From contig CAILHZ010000013.1 in the NCBI GenBank assembly GCA_903834135.1, forward strand, positions 1 to 64,000: a stretch of DNA of 64,000 bases, written 5' to 3'. Under the pieces are notes generated by a model, which was not told the origin of the DNA, did not search any database, and saw only the letters and a program-made list of their open reading frames with translations. Numbering within the stretch: position 1 is the first letter of the stretch; every line of letters starts with the position of its first letter. The position numbers and the translations under genes were made by a program. The stretch comes from an uncultured Opitutia bacterium (GTDB lineage: Bacteria > Verrucomicrobiota > Verrucomicrobiia > Opitutales > Opitutaceae). Of this stretch, positions 48,794-62,753 are shown in pieces.

Positions 48794-50110
48794 ATGTACT
48801 CTGCAAAGCCAAATAAGTCTCAACTGTTATTTATCTACATTTGGACAGGCGCATTTTCGCTTTGGACTGGATCGTTAATTGCATCAATTAGCCCTTGGCT
48901 TCACTGGAGCCATCATCCAATAGAAGCAGCACTAATCCAGGGTGTCATCGCAGTCATTTTGGCACTACTGCTGAGTGCCCTGTTTATATACATACTTAAG
49001 TCAGGCTTATCTACTGAAGTAGAAAGTCAAAATATACACTATATCCCTAGGCTTGATCATTTAAGATTTTTAGCAGCCTCTCTCGTGGTACTTTATCATT
49101 ACTTTCATACTATTGTAGTCCCTGGAAGGATTGTGACAGGTCTATTTAGTGAAATCGCAAGCGAAGGCTCAAGTGGAGTAGATCTGTTCTTCGTACTCAG
49201 CGGGTTCATCTTTGGTACCATAGCTTATCAAAAACGAATCCATTATGGTAATTTCATCATTTCACGCCTTTTTAGAATTTATCCTTTATACCTCTTTGCA
49301 GTCACAATTGCCGTAAGTGTTCACTACAATCTTTTTAGCACACTGGATTGCCTACTTCTTTTCTTTCCCTTTTTCCAAGTTAATCATATCGCAGGTACAC
49401 TCAATGATTTCGGTCAACTTTGGAGCATAGGTTTAGAATTTCAATTCTATCTGATATTTCCCTTCTTGGCTGAATTTGTCTTACGTTTTGGATATCGTTA
49501 TCTCATTGCACTCACGCTAGCCATTATTGCCTTACGTTATTTCTATTTCACTCAAACAGGCACTGTACGAGATTTTGTTTATTGGTCACTCCTGGGTCGA
49601 ATTGATGAATTTGCAGTGGGTATACTAGCAACCGCTATATCCATCAGAAACCCTTCCTTCTTTAAGAACCCACTACATTTACTGTGTTCACTGGTATGCG
49701 CTGTACTAAGCTTTCACTGGCTACAGGCTTGGGGTGGCTATTACAACGGCGTTAATTCTGCCCTATGGGTCATTTGGCCAACGTTTGAGGGTTTAGTATG
49801 GGCTTACTTAATAGTAAGCTACCTAAGAGCTAGAATCACTATCCCTGATTTTTTGAATAATAGCCTAGCTAAGCTTGGTCACTTAAGTTTCTCAATTTAT
49901 GTGATGCACGGCTACGCAGTTTTTATTACACTTAAGTACTTTGGCGTCTATCACTTCACTGCCTCGCGTGAAGGCGATGCAATTATAGCTGGCTTACTCA
50001 TATGCCTACCTCTCTCAGTCTGTATAGCACTGCCGACTTTTCACTTTATTGAGAAACCGTTCTTTGTATTTAAGAAAAAATATACAGAGAATTCACTACG
50101 CGGTCGGTAA
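48794..50110 (+). CDS. acyltransferase 3 family membrane protein (OafA-like)
   Basis: 438 residues, about ten helices. Family motif R-L-D-H-L-R-F-L-A-A-S-L-V-V-L-Y-H near 78, then G-V-D-L-F-F-V-L-S-G-F-I and C-terminal S-F-S-I-Y-V-M-H. Transfers acyl (often acetyl) groups to surface or exported glycans. Two extra N-terminal helices (about 8-75) precede the usual domain. Ends at a bidirectional terminator. Confidence 0.87.
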   Translation: MYSAKPNKSQLLFIYIWTGAFSLWTGSLIASISPWLHWSHHPIEAALIQGVIAVILALLLSALFIYILKSGLSTEVESQNIHYIPRLDHLRFLAASLVVLYHYFHTIVVPGRIVTGLFSEIASEGSSGVDLFFVLSGFIFGTIAYQKRIHYGNFIISRLFRIYPLYLFAVTIAVSVHYNLFSTLDCLLLFFPFFQVNHIAGTLNDFGQLWSIGLEFQFYLIFPFLAEFVLRFGYRYLIALTLAIIALRYFYFTQTGTVRDFVYWSLLGRIDEFAVGILATAISIRNPSFFKNPLHLLCSLVCAVLSFHWLQAWGGYYNGVNSALWVIWPTFEGLVWAYLIVSYLRARITIPDFLNNSLAKLGHLSFSIYVMHGYAVFITLKYFGVYHFTASREGDAIIAGLLICLPLSVCIALPTFHFIEKPFFVFKKKYTENSLRGR

Positions 50111-50176: not shown

Positions 50177-51721
50177 TTAGTTCTGAGGCAATGCAGCACG
50201 CCATCCCGCTTTCCACTCGGTCATGAGTGAGGCGACGAGCTCTTTATTTTCAGATAGATTAGCAATATTCACATTTTCCTGAGGATCAGTTTCATGGTCA
50301 TACAGTTCGATTGCATCAACCTTAGAATGATCCTTACGTCCTACCCATACCGTGAAGCGGTAACGCTGAGTGCGCATCGAATACCCCATCAAGGCACCTG
50401 CACCTGTTTTACCTGTTGCCCGTGGGTATTGGCTGAAAGCGGCTTTCTTCCAAGATAAATTAGGATTATCTAAGAGTGGCTTAAAGCTATAGCCTTCAAC
50501 CGTAGATGGCACAGACAACCCTGCTACGTCGGAAAGTGTTGGATATATATCAACAAATTCAACAAGCGCTGCAGAATGCTCCCCTTTAGCTTTCATGTTT
50601 GGTGTAGAAATAATCAAAGGAACATTAGTGTCGTTTTCTACATTAGTATGTTTACCCCAGCCACTATGCTCACCTAACTTCCAACCATGATCACCCCAAA
50701 GAATAACGATTGTATTATCGCGTAGTCCAAGACGATCAAGCTCTGCCATAACACGGCCTACCTGAGCATCTGTATAGCTAACCCCAGCGAAGTAAGCATG
50801 CTTGAGTTGACGAGCAAGCGCATCTGAAAAAGGTCCTGTAGCAGGAATTCCATGATAATGACGGATCTCACCATCATTTGGATTTACTGCATAAATGGGT
50901 GAATCTTTAGCGAGAAATGGATTAGGTGCTAATGCGATTTTCGATTCATCATACATGTCCCAATACTTTTGCGGAGCGACCCATGGCAAATGTGGTTTGA
51001 TAAAACCAACAGCTAAGAAGAATGGCTCTTTGCGATTTTTTAATTTAGCTAAACTTTCGATCGCCAGGTCAGCTACTTTACCATCCTGATAAGTATTATC
51101 AGGTACATCTGCGTGCTCGAATGCTGGCCCACGTGTTCCGGGACCATCTTCGTCGCTAGCGAGTGATGCTTTTTTCTTCTTTTTTGGTTTTTCCTTAGCC
51201 AGCGCCTGGTTAACGGTGTCATCTGGTTCCCCTTCAACTTTTAAAGGACTTACTGAAAGACTTTCTTTTAGTACATAAATAGGCGCTTTAGGTGTTACCC
51301 ATGGTATACTCCAAGAGGCTGGATCATTGTAACCCACGTGAAATATTTTGCCCATACCTTGAACAAAATAACCATTATTCATGAAGTTTTGTTGCAGCGT
51401 TACTACATTAGGTAGTGCGGTACGAAAATGAGTAAACAAATCCCAAACCTGAGTTGTATCGGGACGAGTGCCGGTTAAGAGACTAGACCTAGTAGGTGAG
51501 CATACCGCTTGTTGACAGTATGCATGATCAAATACCATGCCCTGTTTGGCTATGGCATCTATATTAGGCGTCTTCATGTAGTCTTTACCGTAACATCCCA
51601 ATTCAGGCCGCAAATCATCAACGGCGATGAAAAGAACATTAGGACGTGCTGCTGGTGTTGAACTACTTTGTGCAAATAAAGTAGGCGCAATTAATGCGAG
51701 TAATAACAAGGTACGTTTCAT
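50177..51721 (-). CDS. exported sulfatase (iduronate-2-sulfatase-like)
   Basis: About 514 residues from ATG 51721; signal peptide L-L-L-L-A-L-I-A-P-T-L-F-A. Active site C-S-P-T-R-S-S-L-L-T-G: the Cys would become formylglycine. Metal ligands in F-I-A-V-D-D-L-R-P-E and W-G-D-H-G-W-K-L-G-E-H. Sulfated-glycan degradation in the periplasm. A lysine-rich insertion (K-P-K-K-K-K-K, about residue 181) sits in a surface loop. No anaerobic maturase (anSME) is in the window. Confidence 0.88.
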   Translation of the reverse strand: MKRTLLLLALIAPTLFAQSSSTPAARPNVLFIAVDDLRPELGCYGKDYMKTPNIDAIAKQGMVFDHAYCQQAVCSPTRSSLLTGTRPDTTQVWDLFTHFRTALPNVVTLQQNFMNNGYFVQGMGKIFHVGYNDPASWSIPWVTPKAPIYVLKESLSVSPLKVEGEPDDTVNQALAKEKPKKKKKASLASDEDGPGTRGPAFEHADVPDNTYQDGKVADLAIESLAKLKNRKEPFFLAVGFIKPHLPWVAPQKYWDMYDESKIALAPNPFLAKDSPIYAVNPNDGEIRHYHGIPATGPFSDALARQLKHAYFAGVSYTDAQVGRVMAELDRLGLRDNTIVILWGDHGWKLGEHSGWGKHTNVENDTNVPLIISTPNMKAKGEHSAALVEFVDIYPTLSDVAGLSVPSTVEGYSFKPLLDNPNLSWKKAAFSQYPRATGKTGAGALMGYSMRTQRYRFTVWVGRKDHSKVDAIELYDHETDPQENVNIANLSENKELVASLMTEWKAGWRAALPQN

Positions 51722-51834
51722 GGTAATAAAATGGGGCAATTCTAATCTCTGTGTACTATCTCTTAATGACCTATTTAACGAAAGGCCTAAATCTACGTAT
51801 TTTGTACGATAGACAAAACGATCCGTATGGCCAC

Positions 51835-51882: not shown

Positions 51883-52548
51883 TTACTTGATCTGTAAAAG
51901 CTCTGTTGAAGACCATTCTTTACGGTCACCAGCTTGAGAACGAATACGAGCAACCGCGTCAGCTGTAATTACTGCTCCTTTATTGCCCCACTCCTGTCTT
52001 ATGTAGGTCAATACATTAGCTATTTTTTCATCAGTCCAGTTGTAACCAGCTGTTCCAAAAGCAGGCATCGCTGCAGCTCCGGCATATGAAGTACCGCTAA
52101 CAGTCACTTGTCCTTTTAGTCCGTGTAAAAGAATACGAACGACACGTTCTTCTGATCCTGTTACCCATTCTGAGCCAGCTAAAGGAGGATATACTCCTGC
52201 AATACCCTGACCATTAGGTTGGTGGCAGCTATAGCAAGCACCAGGAGAATTGAACAGTTTCTTTCCAGCTGCTACTGGATCTGCTTTAACAACAACTTCA
52301 GCTCCTGTGTGAGGTAATGCTGTTTCGTTGTAAATGGAAGCGCTGTAGTGACCAGAATAGCGATTAACGTACGTTGCTGCAAAAAGCACGAAAGTACTTA
52401 ATAAAAACAACATCAATAAAGGGCGCAGGTTATAATTACCGGCATCATCCTTTTGAGGCCCAAGGGCTTTTTCGTGAGAATCAAGAACTTGTGCATCATC
52501 ATTTGCTGCACGTTCAAAGCGTGAATCGTTATGTGAGGAGTTACTCAT
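51883..52548 (-). CDS. CcoP-like membrane-anchored monoheme cytochrome c
   Basis: 221 residues. Polar N terminus, one transmembrane helix (about 43-62, L-L-M-L-F-L-L-S-T-F-V-L-F), then a periplasmic cytochrome c domain with one C-Y-S-C-H and an axial-ligand loop A-A-M-P-A-F. cbb3 CcoP usually has two hemes; this has one. Periplasmic electron carrier tied to the membrane. Last gene before the terminator, its start overlapping the CcoO-like gene by ATGA. Confidence 0.85.
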   Translation of the reverse strand: MSNSSHNDSRFERAANDDAQVLDSHEKALGPQKDDAGNYNLRPLLMLFLLSTFVLFAATYVNRYSGHYSASIYNETALPHTGAEVVVKADPVAAGKKLFNSPGACYSCHQPNGQGIAGVYPPLAGSEWVTGSEERVVRILLHGLKGQVTVSGTSYAGAAAMPAFGTAGYNWTDEKIANVLTYIRQEWGNKGAVITADAVARIRSQAGDRKEWSSTELLQIK

Positions 52549-53183
52549 TTTTCGCCCTCCCCTTTAGCACCAGCCACAGGATGGGCTTCAGGATAATCAT
52601 ACGTTGTGTTTAAGCTAAGCAGATAAGCTACAAGTTCTTTAGCACGCGTAGTTGGAATAATTTCAAAACCAGATTGTGGTTTTTGCTTTCCAGTTAACTT
52701 GAGTGCTTCGCTTGAAGCCTCGCCTTGAATCTTATGTGTTTCAAAAAGGAATTGGTAGGAAGGCATAGCGCCTTGACCTTGATAGAGCATGTGAAGCAAA
52801 TCGTCTTGATCAGGAGCGCTTGGCTTACGGCCAGCCAAATTAGTTAAATCTTGGCCAATACGTGATTCACCTAATTGGACTGATGTCTGGTAAATATAAT
52901 CGCGTGCTACACTTTGACGCTCACCCCAACCACGATCTTGGTCAGAGCCAAATCCAGGACGGCGTACCTGCTGGGTATGGCAAGAAGCACAGCCTAAATC
53001 TTTATAAACTAAAGCACCTTGTGCCGCTAGTCCTGAAGGACGAGCAGGATAGGATGTGCTATCAGTGTCATCATAGTAACCCGCAAGGGAACCAATCTGA
53101 GCATTGGAAGAGACTACAATGCCAACCCAGGCTAAGCCGAGTGCAGCAAATAATCCTAAAAAGAATAAAGAACCGTTCTTCAT
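52545..53183 (-). CDS. CcoO-like monoheme cytochrome c
   Basis: 212 residues. N-terminal helix (about 5-26), then the cbb3-CcoO pattern L-G-C-A-S-C-H-T-Q-Q-V-R-R-P-G near 67-81 (CcoO usually has G-C-Y-N-C-H-S-Q-M-I-R), Y-I-Y-Q, and the distal methionine in M-P-S-Y. Heme ligands are intact. In oxidases CcoO passes electrons to CcoN; here the CcoN partner lacks its metals (see next gene). Overlaps both neighbours by 4 bases. Confidence 0.86.
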   Translation of the reverse strand: MKNGSLFFLGLFAALGLAWVGIVVSSNAQIGSLAGYYDDTDSTSYPARPSGLAAQGALVYKDLGCASCHTQQVRRPGFGSDQDRGWGERQSVARDYIYQTSVQLGESRIGQDLTNLAGRKPSAPDQDDLLHMLYQGQGAMPSYQFLFETHKIQGEASSEALKLTGKQKPQSGFEIIPTTRAKELVAYLLSLNTTYDYPEAHPVAGAKGEGEK

Positions 53184-54589
53184 GAGGCTAAGGCTCCTTC
53201 CTTCGAACTGTCTGATTTACAGCAGCAGGTAATAACTGTTTTGAGAAAGTTTACTGCTAAAAGAAGACTACTAGTGAGAATAATAAATTGTCCTGCAGAA
53301 GCGACCAAGAGGTACGGCCTCATTTGAACAGCAATATCTGAGAAATTAACTTTAGCATCAGCGAGTGCATTGCCCTGAACAAGTCCTGCAGCTGCAAGAC
53401 TAAGTACAGTTACAAGAATTCCCACAGCAGACAAAATCAGTTGGCCTTTGATTAAAGCACCAGAGGACCATGCCGCACCTTTAAGGCGAGGTAGTGCAAA
53501 ATAAAGAGCACCAAAGAACATCATGGAAGCACCACCATAAAGGGCTAATAATTTCTGAGCATCCTCATAAACAGTAAATTGTGTTATAGCTGCGTAAGCA
53601 CGCATTGATGTAAGAGCATCCACAAAACCACCAGCAACGTAGCAGATCAGGCCGATTGCAACGAAACCTAAACTCAGTGAGCCACCCTTTAGCGCCATAC
53701 GTAAGTTTAGAAAAACAACGATATAGTGAAATACAAGTGTTACGGTCATGACAATCGCAACCGAGGAAATCCAGGCAGGTATTGGTCCTCCAATTAAGTG
53801 ACGGGCACCGGTCCAACCACCCACAACAAGTAAAGTCCAAAAGCCTAGTGCTGCGCTATCATACGCAGGAATAACTTTGCCGCTCATGCGGGGCACAACG
53901 TAATATGCTGCTGTAAGTGCTAGAGGAGCAATCCATAATGTCCATAGGCCTTGAGCGTACCAACCGCCAACAACGGCTTGTAGAACACCTCTCACGGGAG
54001 AGCATTCTAGCATCACGTAAGCTATAGATAATAACCAAGGGAAAAGAAACAGTGCAGCAATAGCATACCACTGAGAAGCGAACATCATTTCACGGCGACG
54101 TCCCGTCCAGGATAAAAGTCCAGCTACAGCAATTCCTCCATATGAACAGAACAATAAAGGCTGAACGTAACTAGGCAGCTGATACATCGAGATTGAGGTT
54201 AAATCCCCTAGAGCAAGACCGCCTAGAGCAACAGTTACTGCAAGATTCCAGAATAAGGCTCCTACAAATACCCAATTAGCACCACGTAACTTTTCTCCAG
54301 ATAAACGAGCAAGAATCCATAACGCTAAGCCTAAACCTACATTACCAATCCAACCATAAATAAAGGAAGTTTCTGCCATAGCACGTACGCGGCCATATGA
54401 TAAGACCGGGCACTCTGCTAGGAAACTAGGTGTATGCAGTTGAATCGAAGTAATAAGGGCAAATACCCCACTCACAACGAGCCACAGGACCGAAGATCCT
54501 AAAAGATAAAGCAAAGGATAACGCCCTGTAGATTCAGCCGGAGTTTGATCGGCAGAATCAGCGCTTGGTGATGTCGATGCGTGGGTCAT
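53180..54589 (-). CDS. CcoN-like oxidase subunit I homologue lacking heme and CuB ligands
   Basis: 469 residues with about 12 helices. Family resemblance is clear along its length: S-Y-G-R-V-R (cf. F-G-R-L-R-P), W-Y-A-x-A-A-L, G-G-W-Y-A-Q-G (cf. W-W-Y-G-H-N), G-W-T-G-A-R-H-L (cf. G-P-H-H-L), F-F-G-A-L-Y-F-A-L-P-R-L (cf. F-G-A-L-Y-Y-L-I-P-R). But the ligands are gone: the helix-2 His is Ala72, the first CuB His is Gln213, the HH pair is Arg263-His264, and the helix-10 His pair is replaced in T-V-Y-E-D-A-Q-K. The whole protein has only His3, 52, 264 and 288. It cannot bind heme b, heme b3 and CuB as an oxidase does. I infer a structural or docking role. Frame is intact and it is co-transcribed with working cytochromes, so not an obvious pseudogene. 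Confidence 0.85.
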   Translation of the reverse strand: MTHASTSPSADSADQTPAESTGRYPLLYLLGSSVLWLVVSGVFALITSIQLHTPSFLAECPVLSYGRVRAMAETSFIYGWIGNVGLGLALWILARLSGEKLRGANWVFVGALFWNLAVTVALGGLALGDLTSISMYQLPSYVQPLLFCSYGGIAVAGLLSWTGRRREMMFASQWYAIAALFLFPWLLSIAYVMLECSPVRGVLQAVVGGWYAQGLWTLWIAPLALTAAYYVVPRMSGKVIPAYDSAALGFWTLLVVGGWTGARHLIGGPIPAWISSVAIVMTVTLVFHYIVVFLNLRMALKGGSLSLGFVAIGLICYVAGGFVDALTSMRAYAAITQFTVYEDAQKLLALYGGASMMFFGALYFALPRLKGAAWSSGALIKGQLILSAVGILVTVLSLAAAGLVQGNALADAKVNFSDIAVQMRPYLLVASAGQFIILTSSLLLAVNFLKTVITCCCKSDSSKEGALAS

Positions 54590-54930
54590 TTCGAAGAATT
54601 TGAAGCGTTCGTTTCGTTTACGTAGAGTTCCATCGCGCGCTCGATTGGAAGTTGTACTGCACCCTTTGATTTATCAATCCATGCGTAACTCGTGGCCTGT
54701 GTGGATTGCTTATCCTTGAGTTCAAGTAAGTAAGCACGACGCGTTTCATGAGTTGCCTTCCATGCAAGATCTGCAGGCAGTTTCTCAGGAGCTACATTTT
54801 GCGGAGCAGCAGGCACATGGGAAATATACATCCAACGTGTCAGGATAAAAAACACACTGAGTCCGAGTGTGACAGCAATAAGTGCTGACCATGATACTGG
54901 GCGTGAAGGACGTGTAGATGAATCACTCAT
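54586..54930 (-). CDS. small single-helix protein of the ACIII operon
   Basis: 114 residues. One transmembrane helix (about 15-33, A-L-I-A-V-T-L-G-L-S-V-F-F-I-L-T), then a soluble segment with the motif Y-A-W-I-D-K-S-K-G-A-V-Q-L-P-I-E-x-A-M-E-L-Y near residues 82-103. Similar Y-x-W-x-D-x-x-x-G-x-x-x-x-P-I-x-x-A-M stretches occur in small proteins near bacterial respiratory genes, as I recall. It could be the ActG-like accessory subunit. Overlaps actF by 8 bases and the CcoN-like gene by 4 bases. Confidence 0.7.
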   Translation of the reverse strand: MSDSSTRPSRPVSWSALIAVTLGLSVFFILTRWMYISHVPAAPQNVAPEKLPADLAWKATHETRRAYLLELKDKQSTQATSYAWIDKSKGAVQLPIERAMELYVNETNASNSSK

Positions 54931-56167
54931 GGAAAGTTAGGGATTCAGTGATACGAGGATCGTGAATAGGGATCAGTTTAGTAGTTGGGAAACTCTTTAA
55001 GTAAGACCATACACAAATACCACCAATTCCGATGGTCGAGGTGAGGGCCCAAAGTAAACCAAGCGAGAAAAAGGGCAGCGGATTACCTGCGGCATCTTTT
55101 ACGGCAGGAAGAATATTCCAGCACATATCAATAAAGATAACACCAAGGATCCAAAGTGCGATGCGGCGAATAGGAGCTTTATTCACTTTACGTGAATAAG
55201 AAAGCAGTAACAAGAATGGGAGAAGGAAGTGACCGAATACTAGAACCATACCTATTCCCCACCAGTCACCGTACTCACGTAAATTATACCAGAATGTTTC
55301 TTCAGGAACGTTAGCATTCCAGATTAAGAAATACTGAGAGAAACTGATGTAGCCCCAAAATACTGTGAATGCGAACATCATCTTACCAACACTGTGCCAG
55401 TGATCAGAATGAAGAATACCTTTGAAATCACCACGGTTGTATAACCAAACCATTATCAAAATGGTGCAGGAGTAAGCTCCTCGCATACAATTTGCGAAAT
55501 ACCATACACCGTACATGGTTGAAAACCAGTGATACTCTAAGCTCTTAAGCCAATATACAGCTGCAAAAGTGAGTGTAAGAGCAACGAGCGGGATACCAAA
55601 TCCAGCCGTCATACGGTTCATCTTAGTCCAGGAAGCATTGCCATCTTTATCTTGAGTAAAGGAAGCCTTACGTAGGCGAGATGAAATCCAGATCCATACA
55701 ACAAAGAAAAGCACAGAGAAGATGGTGAATGCGTTTAAATTCAAAAACGCAGACTTTTTTGCATAGACCATATCATTAGCTACGGTCTTACCTTCTCCCT
55801 CGAGAAGATGTGCTGGATTCATCCATGGCCATATTGTGTCTTTAGCACCAAACCATGTAATCAAAAGTAGCGGTAAAAATAACAGTGCAAGCCACTTGAA
55901 AGCACTTAGTGCATGTTCGAATTGGCGGCGTAGTACCGTCGACCACTGTGCATCAAAAATATGATGGATTAAAGTTAGCAGTAAAAAACCGATCGCAATA
56001 GCACACCAGTAAGCAATGCCTACTAGCCAGCTCGTTGCTACGATATGTACAGGTGATAAAACAAGACCCAGAAGCGTGACTGCAATACCTGCAAGTCCGA
56101 TTGTGAGTGCTTTGTTAGAGGCGGGAGCCCCTGCTGAATGCGTAGAAGTGACCTCGGGGTTACTCAT
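54923..56167 (-). CDS. actF: ACIII subunit ActF (quinol:cytochrome c oxidoreductase)
   Basis: 414 residues, about ten helices, the ActF/NrfD-like quinone-subunit type. W-F-S-T-M-Y-G-V-W-Y-F-A and D-H-W-H-S-V-G-K-M-M-F-A-F-T-V-F-W are recognisable. Integral inner-membrane part of alternative complex III, with ActC forming the quinol site. Overlaps actE by 4 bases. Confidence 0.88.
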   Translation of the reverse strand: MSNPEVTSTHSAGAPASNKALTIGLAGIAVTLLGLVLSPVHIVATSWLVGIAYWCAIAIGFLLLTLIHHIFDAQWSTVLRRQFEHALSAFKWLALLFLPLLLITWFGAKDTIWPWMNPAHLLEGEGKTVANDMVYAKKSAFLNLNAFTIFSVLFFVVWIWISSRLRKASFTQDKDGNASWTKMNRMTAGFGIPLVALTLTFAAVYWLKSLEYHWFSTMYGVWYFANCMRGAYSCTILIMVWLYNRGDFKGILHSDHWHSVGKMMFAFTVFWGYISFSQYFLIWNANVPEETFWYNLREYGDWWGIGMVLVFGHFLLPFLLLLSYSRKVNKAPIRRIALWILGVIFIDMCWNILPAVKDAAGNPLPFFSLGLLWALTSTIGIGGICVWSYLKSFPTTKLIPIHDPRITESLTFHE

Positions 56168-56814
56168 TTGATTCCAAGCTCCGTTTTGACCTGCGCAGGC
56201 ACGTCATTGATTGTTCCGAGCTGAGCACGTTGTAATGATCTTACGTAAGCGATGATTGCCCAACGATCTTTAGGTTCGATCTTATCAGCATATCCACCCA
56301 TCTGATAAGCTGGCCCTTTGCCATTAGTAATGACATCGAAAATATCTCCTTCTGGAAGATTACGAATACGGTCATCATGATAGCTTGGTGTAGCACCCAT
56401 TCCGTAACGTTTAGTAATACCATTGCCATCGCCAACATTACCGTGACAAGGCGAGCAATAAATTGTGTATCGCTCACGACCACGTTGTACAAAAGCGAGA
56501 TCTACCTTAAGTGAGGCAGGATACCCACGTACCCAAGATCCATCTGCAGCTTTACCTAGGTAAAGTACTGAATCGTCACCTCTAAAAGGTTGGCTGTAAG
56601 CCACAACCCCTGAAGGAGGTAAACGATCTGAGCGACCATCCGAGAAAAATGAGAATCCTCCTTGAGTACGCACTTTCGATGTAAATTTCATACCTGGGAA
56701 AAGGGTATCAGGAAATACATCGATAGGAGATTTCGTGAAATACCCTCCTCTTAATCCGAGTACGGAAAGAGTAAGTACGACTAAAAAGGTGGTGATGAGA
56801 TATACGTTACGCAT
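56164..56814 (-). CDS. actE: ACIII subunit ActE (monoheme cytochrome c)
   Basis: 216 residues. N-terminal helix or signal (about 5-22), then one heme site C-S-P-C-H-G near 119 and a distal Met in Y-Q-M-G-G-Y. Carries electrons out of ACIII to a periplasmic acceptor. Sits between actD and actF. Confidence 0.9.
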   Translation of the reverse strand: MRNVYLITTFLVVLTLSVLGLRGGYFTKSPIDVFPDTLFPGMKFTSKVRTQGGFSFFSDGRSDRLPPSGVVAYSQPFRGDDSVLYLGKAADGSWVRGYPASLKVDLAFVQRGRERYTIYCSPCHGNVGDGNGITKRYGMGATPSYHDDRIRNLPEGDIFDVITNGKGPAYQMGGYADKIEPKDRWAIIAYVRSLQRAQLGTINDVPAQVKTELGIK

Positions 56815-56819
56815 GGGGC

Positions 56820-57353
56820 TCAGGCTTCGAGTTCTGCGATTTCTAATCCGCCTGCCTCTGCTAGGAGTGCACGGGTATTATCTGCGTTGAAACGCGGATC
56901 GCTGGTTTCAATGACGATGAAAAATGAATCGTCAGTAGCTCTATGTATCTTGTCGTATTTTAAAACTGGATGATAAAGCTGAGTGAGTCCGTTTAGAAAA
57001 AACATTCCGCCAATTGTAGCAAAAGCTGTGAATAGAATTGTTAATTCATAGGACACAGGAAATGCAAACAAAGGACTAAATAAAGGCTTACCACCTACGA
57101 TTATTTTATAATCATAGGCATTCATCCACCAAATCATGGACATACCTGTGCAAAAGCCAGTAATGCCACCAGTCAATGAGAAACGAGGAACGATAGATCG
57201 TTTAACTCCCATTGCTGTATCAAGTCCGTGGATAGGCATTGGTGTTAAGCAGTCCCAATTTTTGTAGCCCGCATCGCGAACTTTCTCAGCCGCGTGGTAT
57301 AAATCACCAGGCGTATTGAAACGAGCAATTAGACCGTAGGGATGTTCAGCCAT
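56820..57353 (-). CDS. actD: ACIII subunit ActD (DUF3341)
   Basis: About 177 residues from ATG 57353 (a TTG two codons upstream is possible). Begins E-H-P-Y-G-L-I-A-R-F and includes two transmembrane helices (about 60-80, 95-120), as in DUF3341 proteins. Structural inner-membrane subunit of ACIII with no cofactor. Confidence 0.9.
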   Translation of the reverse strand: MAEHPYGLIARFNTPGDLYHAAEKVRDAGYKNWDCLTPMPIHGLDTAMGVKRSIVPRFSLTGGITGFCTGMSMIWWMNAYDYKIIVGGKPLFSPLFAFPVSYELTILFTAFATIGGMFFLNGLTQLYHPVLKYDKIHRATDDSFFIVIETSDPRFNADNTRALLAEAGGLEIAELEA

Positions 57354-57355
57354 GG

Positions 57356-58786
57356 TCAAGCGTGTGGGTTTTTATGGCCGTTAAAAGCATCGGCCTGAGG
57401 AGTTACTCCCTTAATTTCTGCCATAGCCATCAGCGGGAGGAAGCGGATGAACAAGAGGAACAATACGGAGAAGACACCGAACGTTCCAAAAAAAGTAAAA
57501 ATATCGATAACGGTTGGAGATAAGTAACCCCAACTAGAAGGCAGGAAGTCACGCGTAAGCGACGTACAAATAATAACGAAGCGCTCAAACCACATACCTA
57601 AGTTTACAAAGAGAGATAGAACCCAGACAAATGTCGTATTATTGCGTACAGCCTTAAACCAGAAGAACTGCGGCGTTATCACGTTACAGCTAATCATGAT
57701 CCAATAAGCCCAAGCATACGGACCGAATGCACGGTTAATAAAGGTAAAGCCTTCGTACGGATTACCACTATACCAAGCGATAAAGAATTCCATTGCATAA
57801 GCATAACCTACCATGGTTCCTGTCGCTAAGGTAATCTTACACATACAGTCGATGTGATACTGTGTGATAAGATCTTCTAACTTATAGATCGCACGTAGTG
57901 GTAGCATCAATGTAAGCACCATTCCGAATCCAGAGAAGATAGCACCGGCAACGAAGTAAGGAGGGAAGATTGTCGTATGCCAACCAGGTATTAGTGATAC
58001 AGCGAAGTCGAATGAAACGATAGTATGCACCGATAATACAAGAGGAGTAGCGATACCTGCTAAGATAAGGTAAGCCATTTCATAGTTGCTCCAAGCACGA
58101 GCTGAACTGCGCCAACCTAATGCGAAAAAGCCATAAATCTTTGCGCGTGTTTCACGTCCCGCTAAAGCAAAGCGGTCACGTAATGTAGCTAAATCAGGCA
58201 AGAGGCCAACATACCAGAATAGAACAGAAACTGTTCCGTAGGTTGATACTGCGAATACGTCCCATTCTAGTGGCGAACGGAATTGTGGCCAAATATTATT
58301 GTAATTCGGTATCGGGAAAAGAAACCACGCATACCAAACACGGCCTACGTGAAATACAGGGAAAATACCCGCACATACTACAGCAAAAATGGTCATTGCT
58401 TCTGCAGCACGGTTAATCGATGTACGCCACTTTTGACGTAGTAAGCACAAGATTGCAGAAATAAGAGTACCAGCATGGCCGATACCGATCCAGAAAACGA
58501 AGTTAACAATAGGCCAACTCCAATTTACTGGGCTTCTATGACCCCATACACCAACGCCAGTTGCTACTACATATGTAATACCAGCAACCGTGAAGCATGC
58601 CATGAAGCAAGCTACTGCGAAACACCACCACCACCAAGAAGGAGTTTTACCTTCTACGATACCGCAGATTTTATCCGTGATCCATGCAAAGTCACGGTCG
58701 TTGTCGACCATCTTTGCACGAGGAAGTGAGGTTGCCTTAACCTCATTCAAAATCGCCGGAGCAGAATGTTCAGATGCGTGTGACAT
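57356..58786 (-). CDS. actC: ACIII subunit ActC (NrfD-like)
   Basis: 476 residues with about ten helices. NrfD/PsrC family: [47 protein letters not shown]. Quinol-binding membrane subunit. One base shared with the actB stop (TAATG). Confidence 0.92.
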
Positions 58787-61700
58787 TAGCTCTTACCTTC
58801 CTTTTTTTCTGATACAGCTGCAGATTTTTCAGCAGCACCTGTGCCCGCGTTATTCTTGCTATCGTGTTCGACACGGCTAAGCGGGAGTGATTTGTAATCA
58901 GGCATACGTGGATTTGGATTACGTAAACGTGCGAGATAAGTCGTACGAGGACGTGTGTTCAAGTAACCGAGTAGTGAGTAATCTTGTTCACGAGATTTCG
59001 CAATTGAGACAGCACTCTTTGGATCTAGAAGATTTCCGAATACGATGGATTCAGTTGGGCAAACCTGTTGGCAAGCCGTTTTGATCGTTCCATCTGGAAC
59101 TGAAACATCTCCCGGACGACCTTCGCGTGTTGCTTGGACCTTCCATTGGATTTTTCCGTTTTCAATACGTTGTACACAGTACGTACATTTTTCCATTACG
59201 CCGCGCATGCGCAGTGTAACTTCTGGATTCTTAGCCATCTGAACAAGCTCCGGCATTCCGTGCTCGCCTAATGGTCCCATGTAAAGACTGTCTAATTTTT
59301 TATCATTCCAGTCGAAATAATTGAAACGACGTACTTTATACGGACAATTATTCGCACAGTAACGAGTACCAACACAGCGATTGTACGCCATGACATTTAG
59401 ACCTTCATCGTCGTGAACAGTAGCATTTACAGGGCAAACCATTTCGCATGGAGCGAGTTCGCACTGCATACAACCAATAGGTTGTAACGAAACCTGAGGA
59501 TCTTCTGGAATTTCACGATTGCCTTCACCACCGAATGGACCGCCGTCTAATTTACCATCAGAGTAGTAACGGTCTAAACGAATCCAGTGCATCGAACGAC
59601 CACGGATTGTTTGATCACGACCAACGATTGGAATATTATTCTCAGACTGACATGCAACAACACAGGCGTTACAGCCTACGCAGGTGTTCAAGTCGATACT
59701 CATACCCCATTGATGCACACCATCAAAGCTTGGAGTTTTATAAAGAGAATTTCCGCGAGGGATTTCTGAATTGCGCTGAGCAAGCGTCATCTTTTCTCCT
59801 TCAGGACCAATGTCTGAAGGTGATTCAGATTCCATACCTACTTCTTTTACGAAAGCTGGGTTCTCGTGATATTCTTCAAGATTAGCTTCACGAACTAAGT
59901 CACGGCCTTCCATTGACCAATGATTTTGTACATTTGCTAATACGTGACGCTCACCAGTGAGTACGAGTGTTGCTCCTGAAGCAAACGACATCGCCTTGGA
60001 AGAGCGCAGTGGATAAGCATTAAAACCAATGTTATCTCCTACTCTGCCAACTACTGTGCGGCCGTGGCCGACAGGAATAATCAGGGTGTAGTTAGAAAGT
60101 CCTGGTTGAATATGCAGAGGACCACGAATCTTACGCCCATCGAGCGTAATTTCTGCGATCTCTGCCATCTGCTTACCTTTTTCAAATACTTCTGTTTCGT
60201 CGCGAGCGACTTGGATAAGTGATCCCTTGGAAGTGATTCCTAATTCTTTAGCTAAACGTGGGCTTACCCAAATAGCATTATCCCAAGCTATTTTAGTGAT
60301 AGGATCAGGACATTCTTGTAGCCAACCATTATTAGCAAAACGGCCGTCGTCGACCTTGCTATCATTGGTAAAACGAACTTCTAAATTATCTTTGGATAAA
60401 GCGAGATGCTTAGGTGCATGCTTAACGAGATTCCCTAATGCTTGTCCGTTATATTCAACAGGAACTTTAGGATATGAGGAGTCTGCAAGAAGTCCGTCGT
60501 GTAAGAAACGATCAAATGCTGTGGACGTTCCATCAGTTAATTTACCAATTGTTGCCTGCACTAATAAATTAGGTTCAGTTTGGCTTTCACCTAAAATGCG
60601 AGCAAGGACTTCAATTTCAGTTAGTCCACCAAACAGTGGATTAATCATTGGCTGAATAGCAGCAATCGTTCCGTCGATCGTGCGTGCATCACCCCATGAC
60701 TCTAAATAGTGAGCTTCTGAAATGTTAACTGAAGCTAATGCTGAAGATTCATCTAAGCGGTAGCCTAAACGAATTACTTCGCCTACGGATTTTTGAGCAG
60801 CTGCCCAATCTAAATCTGCAGGTGCATTGTAAACAGGATTACCACCTAAGATAACAAGTGTCTTAACAGATCCTGCAGAAATTGCTTTGGTAACATCACC
60901 AAGAGGTGCAGCTTTGAATTCTGGAACTTCAAGGAAATCAACCGTTGAACCAATGTTACCTAATGCTGCATTAATTGCGTAAGTGATCGCGTGTACAGCT
61001 GCTGGTAAGTGAGCACCTGCAATAACAAGACCGTGTGCTTTATTGTTTGAAAGATCTGCTGCACATTCGTCAATCCAACCTGCTTTTACATCAAGACCCT
61101 GTGCTAATTTTTCAAAGGAGGAGTCTCCTGTAACTTTAGCTGCTAAGGCTGCTGTGAAAGCAAGCATGTGAGAGCTTGCTAAACGTAAGCGGTGATCTGC
61201 CATGCTGCCAGCGAGAGTGAAACCACTCTCTGCAACATATAGACGATTCATGTCATCGTCCTTAGTTTTTACACGACGACCTTTAGCAAACTCACGGGCG
61301 TAGAAAACGCTGCCAGCTTCAGATTGAAAGAAGTCTGAATCGATGGAAACGATACGCTTTGCTTTTCCAAGTTGGTAAACAGGTTTTACGCTTTTACCAA
61401 ATACAGTTAAAGCTGCTTCTAGCGGAGCTTCGTCTGAAATCGGTTCGTATTCAGACCAAATTGCCTTAGGGAATTTAGCCTGTAAATCACGTACTAAACG
61501 AGCACGTGTAGGAGAGGATGATTCAGAGGCTACAAAGGCAAGGCCTTCACCTTGGTTACCTGAGTACTTCGCATTTACCGAAGTAAGAATTTGATTTACT
61601 GCAGCTGTATCTACTTTAGAGCCATTTTGATAATGAGCTGTAGCGCGATCTGGATCGTAAAGATCAAGAATTGAAGCCTGAGCAACCAGCGAGGTAGCAC

Positions 61701-62103
61701 CACCATAAGGAGCAAAACCAGGATTGCCTTCAATCTTAGTTGGACGGCCTTGATGAGTTTCTGCTAAAACAGGGAGTGCAGATTTACGCAGCGGCATGGC
61801 CGTTGCATAATAAATTGGTAAACCTTGGATGTAGCCTTCAACAGATTTACCAAAAGGTAAAATACGTGTCTCTGGTCGGCGGCACCCTGCCATACCCACG
61901 CCACCTAGGGCAAAGGAGGCAGCCATAATTTTTAAGAAATTACGGCGGTCTACTCCATCTATTGATGAAGCACCCTCAGGAAATTCACGCTCAAGTTGAG
62001 CTTGGAAGCCAGGCGAGCCCTTGAGCTCGTCTAAACTACGCCAATAATTTGGGCCACTCAACGCTCTAGCGGAAGGGGCGGGATGTACGATTTTGCGTTT
62101 CAT
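58786..62103 (-). CDS. actB: ACIII subunit ActB (molybdopterin-fold and Fe-S protein)
   Basis: 1105 residues, the fused B1-B2 type. Tat-like signal [14 protein letters not shown] (about 53-66). The molybdopterin-like part lacks an obvious cofactor. Four Fe-S cysteine groups fill about 770-1020: [37 protein letters not shown], and C-T-Y-C...C-Q-Q-V-C-P. Passes electrons within the complex at the outer face. Overlaps actA by 4 bases. Confidence 0.94.
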
Positions 62104-62753
62104 CTGTGACAGCCTGAGCAGCTCTGAGGAGGATTTACTTTCCAGTCGTGGACAAACTTAGCACCCATCGTGAGCTGTTCTGCTTCGCTAGAAGCTTTCC
62201 AGTCAAGATTTGTGACTTGATCTCTAGGGCGAATGTGGGCCGCAGGATTACGGTGACACTCTAAACAGAATCCCATTGTAAGGGACTTTGCTTCGCCTAC
62301 CACTTCCATCTGGTTGATTTGGCCGTGACATTCTACGCAGCTTACGCCGCGTGCAATGTGTACGGAGTGATTGAAATAAACAAAGTCAGGAACACGGTGG
62401 ATTTGCACCCACGGTACAGGTTGATTGGTTTCGTAGCTCTTGCGGACCACTGCCAACAGAGGACTGTTTGGTTTAATGATCTTATGGCAATTCATGCAGG
62501 TCTGCGCGGTAGGCAGATTTGCAAAACCAGACTTTTCTACATTGCTATGGCAGTAGCGGCAATCGATGCCTAATTCGCCCGCGTGCTTAGCGTGGCTGTA
62601 TGGGACGGGCTGAACTGGAGCGTAGCCGACCCGAGTATACTTCGGGGTCATGTAATAGGTAACGCCAGCAGTCGCTAAACCCGAAATAACAAACAGATAT
62701 ATTATAATCTGCAGCGGGAGCTTATTGACTGATTTCGGGAAGTGCTTCGACAT
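62100..62753 (-). CDS. actA: ACIII subunit ActA (pentaheme cytochrome c)
   Basis: 217 residues. N-terminal helix (about 11-34), then five C-x-x-C-H sites: C-R-Y-C-H, C-M-N-C-H, C-V-E-C-H, C-L-E-C-H and C-S-G-C-H. First gene of the operon. Electron exit or wire of ACIII. Its promoter region is the 299-base gap upstream. Confidence 0.94.
   Translation of the reverse strand: MSKHFPKSVNKLPLQIIIYLFVISGLATAGVTYYMTPKYTRVGYAPVQPVPYSHAKHAGELGIDCRYCHSNVEKSGFANLPTAQTCMNCHKIIKPNSPLLAVVRKSYETNQPVPWVQIHRVPDFVYFNHSVHIARGVSCVECHGQINQMEVVGEAKSLTMGFCLECHRNPAAHIRPRDQVTNLDWKASSEAEQLTMGAKFVHDWKVNPPQSCSGCHR

Follow-up and report, generated by a model that had tools for sequence, protein, structure and literature searches.

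A cbb3-type oxidase core that has lost its metal ligands in alternative complex III operons of Verrucomicrobiota

An oxidase core in an alternative complex III operon

The DNA analysed here, referred to as the window, is a stretch of 64,000 nucleotides from an uncultured Opitutia bacterium of the Opitutaceae (assembly GCA_903834135.1, contig CAILHZ010000013.1, positions 1-64,000, forward strand). It contains a run of ten genes in the order actA, actB, actC, actD, actE, actF, orf114, N, O and P, where the complete actA-F gene set of an alternative complex III (ACIII) lies in one cluster with genes related to those of cbb3-type oxidases. Eight of the neighbouring pairs overlap by 1-8 bases and one pair is 5 bases apart. 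The gene under study, N, encodes a CcoN-like oxidase core and overlaps both orf114 and the O gene by 4 bases.

The N protein matched the Pfam family COX1 (PF00115) with 127.4 bits against a cut-off of 34.8 bits, and its AlphaFold2 model, with a predicted local distance difference test score (pLDDT) of 91.2, yielded a TM-score of 0.89 to chain A of the cbb3 structure 3mk7 (PDB), indicating the twelve-helix COX1 fold. On this model N is a full-length CcoN fold, predicted with confidence. The haem-copper oxidase superfamily is defined by the His residues that serve as its metal ligands. N contains four His in all (3, 52, 264 and 288), and in an alignment to the intact CcoN of the same genome only H264 falls on one of the six ligand columns. 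The two columns for the low-spin haem hold A72 in transmembrane helix 2 (TM2) and L347 in TM10, those for CuB hold Q213, R263 and H264, the column for haem b3 holds Q345, and G257 takes the place of the cross-linking Tyr of TM7. Misalignment of these columns was ruled out, as local-pair and automatic MAFFT alignments gave identical ligand letters with every row compared. Because five of the six metal-ligand His are lost, N is predicted to hold no b haem and no CuB and to be inactive towards oxygen. It differs from the CcoN in 3mk7 chain A in these ligands, in the missing Tyr and in its score with the NCBIfam ccoN equivalog TIGR00780, which was 80.6 bits against a cut-off of 583.15; three six-His relatives, ACIII-linked or from the class, likewise remained below the cut-off (217-250 bits).

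The original prediction, read from the sequence by eye, had described a protein similar to cbb3 subunit I over its length, with four His, with Ala72, Gln213 and Arg263-His264 at ligand sites, and with 4-base overlaps on either side. All of this was borne out by the translation, the alignment with its six marked columns and the structure predicted for N alone. Its placement of the gene in the ACIII operon holds as well, given the ActD, NrfD, ActF and ActB matches around N, as does "oxygen-inactive", to the extent that the loss of the ligands predicts it. It had further proposed to look for the same loss in other Verrucomicrobiota ACIII operons and for a true oxidase in the genome, and both were found, as described below.

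The two genes that follow N encode cytochromes c (Table 1). O scored above the cut-off of the FixO profile, has one CXXCH motif and matched solved CcoO chains at E 2.7e-06, in agreement with CcoO (FixO), and it retains the Met (AMPSYQF). P also has one CXXCH and obtained 29.5 bits with the dihaem ccoP model TIGR00782, for which the cut-off is 179.95 bits. The module thus differs from a cbb3 oxidase in its monohaem P and in the location of N in an ACIII operon. No family in the profile libraries matched orf114 above its cut-off, but the gene is kept in many operons of both kinds described below, and the actF product had no Pfam match. The two genes past the P end of the operon have no evident respiratory link.

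Table 1. Genes of the ten-gene run and of its flank, with positions in the window
Gene and product	Position	Strand	Evidence
actA, multihaem cytochrome c	62100..62753	-	five CXXCH; cytochrome c7/c3 Pfam; operon head
actB, iron-sulphur subunit	58786..62103	-	solved ACIII subunit B chains, best E 1.7e-248; Fer4 domains
actC, NrfD-like	57356..58786	-	PF03916, 90.5 bits
actD	56820..57359	-	PF11821, 219.7 bits
actE, monohaem cytochrome c (CSPCH)	56164..56814	-	PF13442, 45.1 bits; operon place
actF	54923..56167	-	solved ActF chain 6f0k_F, E 9.1e-55
orf114, small protein between actF and N	54586..54930	-	gene order in relatives
N, CcoN-like oxidase core, one of six ligand His	53180..54589	-	PF00115; ligand columns; AlphaFold2; TM-score; ATG at 54589, stop ends at 53180, 469 aa
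O, CcoO/FixO-like monohaem cytochrome c	52545..53183	-	PF02433, 41 bits against cut-off 29.6; CASCH
P, monohaem cytochrome c in CcoP place (CYSCH)	51883..52548	-	PF00034, 49.6 bits
Sulfatase	50177..51739	-	
Membrane acyltransferase	48794..50110	+	

Live and dead relatives

A family profile built from 25 relatives, which also picks up canonical CcoN, had matches in 131 of the 387 genomes of Verrucomicrobiota. From 219 matched frames we dropped 7 fragments or weak matches and 20 duplicates; the 192 that were kept are all at least 380 aa in length, so that broken copies of N might escape this filter. All six ligand His and the Tyr were present in 57 frames, hereafter "live", and 134 retained 0-3 His, hereafter "dead"; one truncated row had five His and the Tyr. 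A same-strand act gene was found beside 176 of the 192 (132 dead, 44 live), and the number of ligand His in these was six in 44, three in 3, two in 8, one in 92 and none in 29. One live row, L275, is linked by an ActE-like cytochrome alone; it remains in the sample of 44 used for the link, coxA, dN/dS, refill, O-ligand and His counts, and the strict count is 43 live plus 132 dead, 175 in total. None of the 175 distinct ACIII-linked relatives had four or five ligand His. The two dead rows with no act gene in view are L137, on a contig of 3.0 kb, and L056, which lies next to orf114 and close to the end of its contig. The operons of the cultured Cephaloticoccus primus and C. capnophilus (L125 and L126) are likewise of the dead form. 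Since there are independent clusters 73-84% identical and the loss is shared by 132 ACIII-linked relatives, sequencing error is excluded as its cause.

Among the 132 dead rows, the Tyr was kept in one (L040) and the first of the paired CuB His in one (L041). Rows L225 and L226 (genomes G048 and G198) retain both His of the low-spin haem b and have lost those of CuB and of the high-spin haem, possibly representing an intermediate state.

The live form is exemplified by L148 from Verrucomicrobia bacterium IMCC26134 (CP011265), also in the Opitutales, which belongs to the same family, is 36% identical to the N of the window and has the same operon order, actABCDEF-orf114-N-O-P. Unlike the N of the window, that of L148 has all six His and the Tyr and is on that account likely a working oxygen reductase. 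Identity as a nitric oxide reductase is unlikely, since the six-His relatives have the TM7 Tyr, which nitric oxide reductases are stated to lack (PMC3084760).

The full set of six act genes was visible in 139 of the 176 operons (102 dead, 37 live), many of the others being on short contigs. In the class of the window, outside the genus g54, 94 genomes have ActD, and the N family was matched strongly in 92 of these; the exceptions are G044 with no match and G398 with a weak one. Thirteen genomes of g54 (family f20) had weak ActD matches (37-71 bits) and no N-family match, for which ACIII remnants or a divergent ACIII that lost N are candidate readings. The 29 ActD-bearing genomes of other classes had no family match, or one at or below the strength of canonical CcoN, and the best 80 of 221 relatives in a scan of genome contigs all carry Verrucomicrobiota lineage names. 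One genome contains a second ACIII-linked dead N (L064, G001:C41), and actB and actF of its act set were not seen.

Selection and the refilled pocket

Ratios of nonsynonymous to synonymous substitutions (dN/dS) were estimated for 44 pairs of dead N genes at 80-99.5% identity and for 28 live pairs. The median was 0.11 (0.05-0.24) for the dead and 0.058 (0.012-0.116) for the live pairs; some sequences occur in more than one pair, and dS is saturated in part of the comparisons. The dead N genes have kept open frames beside act genes and are under purifying selection, as had been suspected from the intact frame and the overlaps of the gene in the window. The approximate doubling of dN/dS relative to the live form is what could be expected of a decaying, functionless remnant held in place by operon polarity only, and we consider this explanation highly improbable: the ratios are low in all 44 dead pairs, N has been retained in nearly all ActD-bearing genomes of the class outside g54, and its fold is predicted with confidence. 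Pseudogene decay is thus disfavoured by dN/dS and retention.

In the live form 142 columns are at least 95% invariant, and 20 of these are kept at that level in the dead form; those most lost include the ligand His, the Tyr, W209 and R430. The vacated sites have been refilled alike in 66 dead proteins of the Opitutaceae type, which share Q213 (63/66), R263 (66/66), H264 (59/66), Q345 (50/66) and Q347 (60/66), together with E73 (62/66) and H288 (65/66), both foreign to the live form. Such uniformity would be in line with a new active role for N, in which the pocket was rebuilt as a polar path conducting protons or binding quinone or another ligand, and the NrfD-like subunits of ACIII, which have no redox cofactors, offer a precedent by analogy. 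This role is nonetheless improbable. A second dead group (n=22) refills the sites with a different set and additional dead lineages carry a variety of other residues, so that no single new site is shared; the N of the window itself departs from the consensus at 347, where it has Leu; and such packing may merely stabilise an empty scaffold.

The conserved H264 and H288 could instead suggest a redox role in which a metal or haem is still bound to N by residues other than the original ligands, for which the low-spin ligands of L225 and L226 might also speak. We regard this as very unlikely, since all three CuB His occur together in none of the 132 dead rows and both low-spin His in just 2.

The haem c partners O and P

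Both cytochromes have been retained in operons of either kind, O in 132/132 dead and 41/44 live and P in 128/132 dead and 38/44 live operons, and every O and P that was found has at least one CXXCH. For the likely second haem ligand of O, we chose the Met column from its similarity to the CcoO portion of the N-O fusion in the window's own genome. Met occupies it in all 41 live O proteins, in 40 according to the pattern and in L036 by eye. Of the dead operons (n=132), 72 have Met, 23 have His, 13 have Cys and 3 have Lys at this column; 21 were unparsed, several of which, such as L117, L231-L233, L245, L256 and L259, show Met by eye. Examples of His are L099, L111 and L124, and of Cys L235-L242. 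Replacement of the Met should alter the potential of the haem, and the haem of O has probably been retuned in part of the dead lineages, giving a changed rather than an unchanged relay there.

Other oxidases in the genomes

The genome of the window encodes an aa3-type oxidase and a cbb3 N-O fusion elsewhere, and no bd oxidase match was obtained in it; this is the genome in which the ligands of the further oxidases were checked. A further haem-copper oxidase was matched in 80 of 80 dead genomes searched, in G412 in pieces at contig ends, and in 29 of 32 live genomes; five dead genomes of the same genus (G003, G007, G008, G010 and G011) were left out of these searches. The contrast between dead and live gave a Fisher p of 0.022, uncorrected for kinship and with two of the three exceptions congeneric. 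In two of the exceptions, G034 and G178 (99 and 98% complete), neither another haem-copper oxidase nor a bd oxidase was matched besides the live ACIII-linked oxidase, which is for this reason likely the terminal oxidase there, and G029 (80% complete) presented the same picture.

In 26 dead operons (families f20, f21, f24 and f28) an aa3 coxA gene follows on the same strand 1.4-2.4 kb downstream. Among the live operons, the examined flank lacked coxA in 35 and contained it in one; the flank was not visible in 25 dead and 8 live operons. The one live case is L217 (G289). Its N has all six His, and an aa3 coxA of the same orientation lies 2.5 kb downstream, which places both oxidases in one neighbourhood, the arrangement to be expected before the loss.

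Probable recurrent loss of the ligands

We inferred a tree of N from 78 ACIII-linked rows at 70% redundancy and 5 outgroup rows after removal of the ligand and Tyr columns, and a tree of ACIII from ActB, ActC and ActF of the same 78 operons. The ACIII tree was made under a model without site mixture and has one long row (L249). The ACIII tree contained 12 changes between the live and dead labels, of which at least 10 are forced by strong branches. If loss is irreversible, 16 losses are needed, with 12 (quick tree) or 13 (careful tree) on branches with a support of at least 95 in the Shimodaira-Hasegawa-like approximate likelihood ratio test (SH-aLRT) and 11 on branches of at least 99. A single dead origin in the Opitutales, with the 48 dead rows held together, was rejected by the ACIII data (approximately unbiased test, p-AU 3.8e-05). 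It is likely that losses in the ACIII-linked relatives happened many separate times and that the gene was retained.

Both trees also contain signals that weigh against such recurrence. The dead rows fall in only two groups in the N tree, which has two changes of state. On the ACIII tree, shuffled labels need a mean of 13.2 changes, and 101 of 500 shuffles required 12 or fewer; clustering so close to random is compatible with recurrence, but likewise with replacement of genes or with errors in the tree. Under replacement, the dead N would have arisen once or twice and spread between operons by exchange of N alone, or of N-O-P, with the scaffold role remaining the same, and two state changes are just what the N tree requires. 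We consider this rather unlikely. Four groups of live and dead rows predicted by the ACIII tree, and picked after that tree was seen, were not rejected by the N data: L072+L132+L230 (p-AU 0.455), L150+L043+L044+L248 (0.327), L196+L247+L261 (0.608) and L199+L042+L067 (0.323). One of the four groupings even had a better likelihood than the free N tree. The dead rows have long branches, for which reason we read the two-group topology as partly attraction, and the letters at the ligand sites differ between dead lineages.

A proposed structural role for the emptied core

The observations to be explained are the lost ligands, the CcoN fold predicted with confidence, the stable gene neighbourhood, the purifying selection, the c-haem motifs of O and P, the other haem-copper oxidases of the genomes and the six-His versions of the operon. 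The emptied cbb3 core has likely been kept as a structural subunit that would anchor O and P to ACIII and so extend the haem wire of ACIII toward a separate, intact oxidase. The ancestor would have been an ACIII-cbb3 operon with a working oxidase. Once a different oxidase reduced the oxygen, N would no longer have needed its b haems and CuB. Since O and P would still have depended on N to hold them, the core would have been emptied repeatedly and not deleted. The N-O-P module would still sit on ACIII, and electrons would travel from quinol via ACIII (ActA/ActE) to the c haems of O and P and from there to the aa3 or the other cbb3 oxidase. "Scaffold" and "attached to ACIII", the terms of the original prediction, are as physical statements what we infer.

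Several other observations count against this explanation. The examined flank lacked coxA in 81 dead operons. O has exchanged its Met for His or Cys in the operons counted above, so the relay is not unchanged everywhere. In four dead operons (L231-L233 and L266), actE and actF are the only act genes within the stretch examined, and the ActD of these genomes is on another contig or about 9 kb away. Finally, the association of N-O-P with ACIII is drawn from gene neighbourhood.

Known systems provide parallels. In Rhodothermus marinus and Flavobacterium johnsoniae, ACIII is tied to an oxidase in ACIII-(c)aa3 supercomplexes, and oxidase genes often come after act genes (PMC5928083, PMC8361435). 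These supercomplexes make a direct hand-over of electrons plausible; for F. johnsoniae, a split of the electron path at ActA/ActE has been proposed (PMC8552683). The oxidases of these two species are A-type and active, whereas the operon partner here is a C-type core without metal ligands, followed by an aa3 coxA in the 26 dead cases, an association seen at the level of genes. Like ActC and ActF, the NrfD-like membrane subunits of ACIII without redox cofactors (PMC8076601), N would be a cofactor-free membrane subunit, but it belongs to another fold family, is an oxidase core that lost its ligands and has live relatives. For Verruconatronum, ActABCDEF is recorded alongside Cox genes (PMC13274419). 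The cbb3 oxidase of Nitrospina is described as having unusual residues at the CuB site, but the numbering of its three CuB His follows that of the family (PMC3578206). In the literature searched, covering titles and the openings of abstracts with few subscription papers and no preprints, we found no description of an ACIII-linked oxidase core without ligands. A broader account is doubtful: that across one class ACIII captured a cbb3 oxidase as a lasting partner, that the core was emptied independently a dozen or more times and kept hollow as an ACIII subunit, and that the pocket was rebuilt into lineage-specific polar networks, yielding a metal-free structural or ion-conducting subunit.

The dead form affects how respiration is read from genomes. 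A haem-copper oxidase classifier discards sequences without the six His (PMC3084760), and ligand-less cores would consequently drop out of a census of that type. Dead relatives are annotated as "cbb3-type cytochrome c oxidase subunit I", including P0044, P0069, P0098 and P0119, which by eye have no ligands, and cbb3 (microaerobic) respiration claimed for Verrucomicrobiota from their genomes can therefore be wrong. If the parallel losses are true, nature would have repeated one change many times in these operons, for which the live relatives of the same operon would serve as controls, giving a direct route to asking what non-catalytic role an oxidase core has in a respiratory complex.
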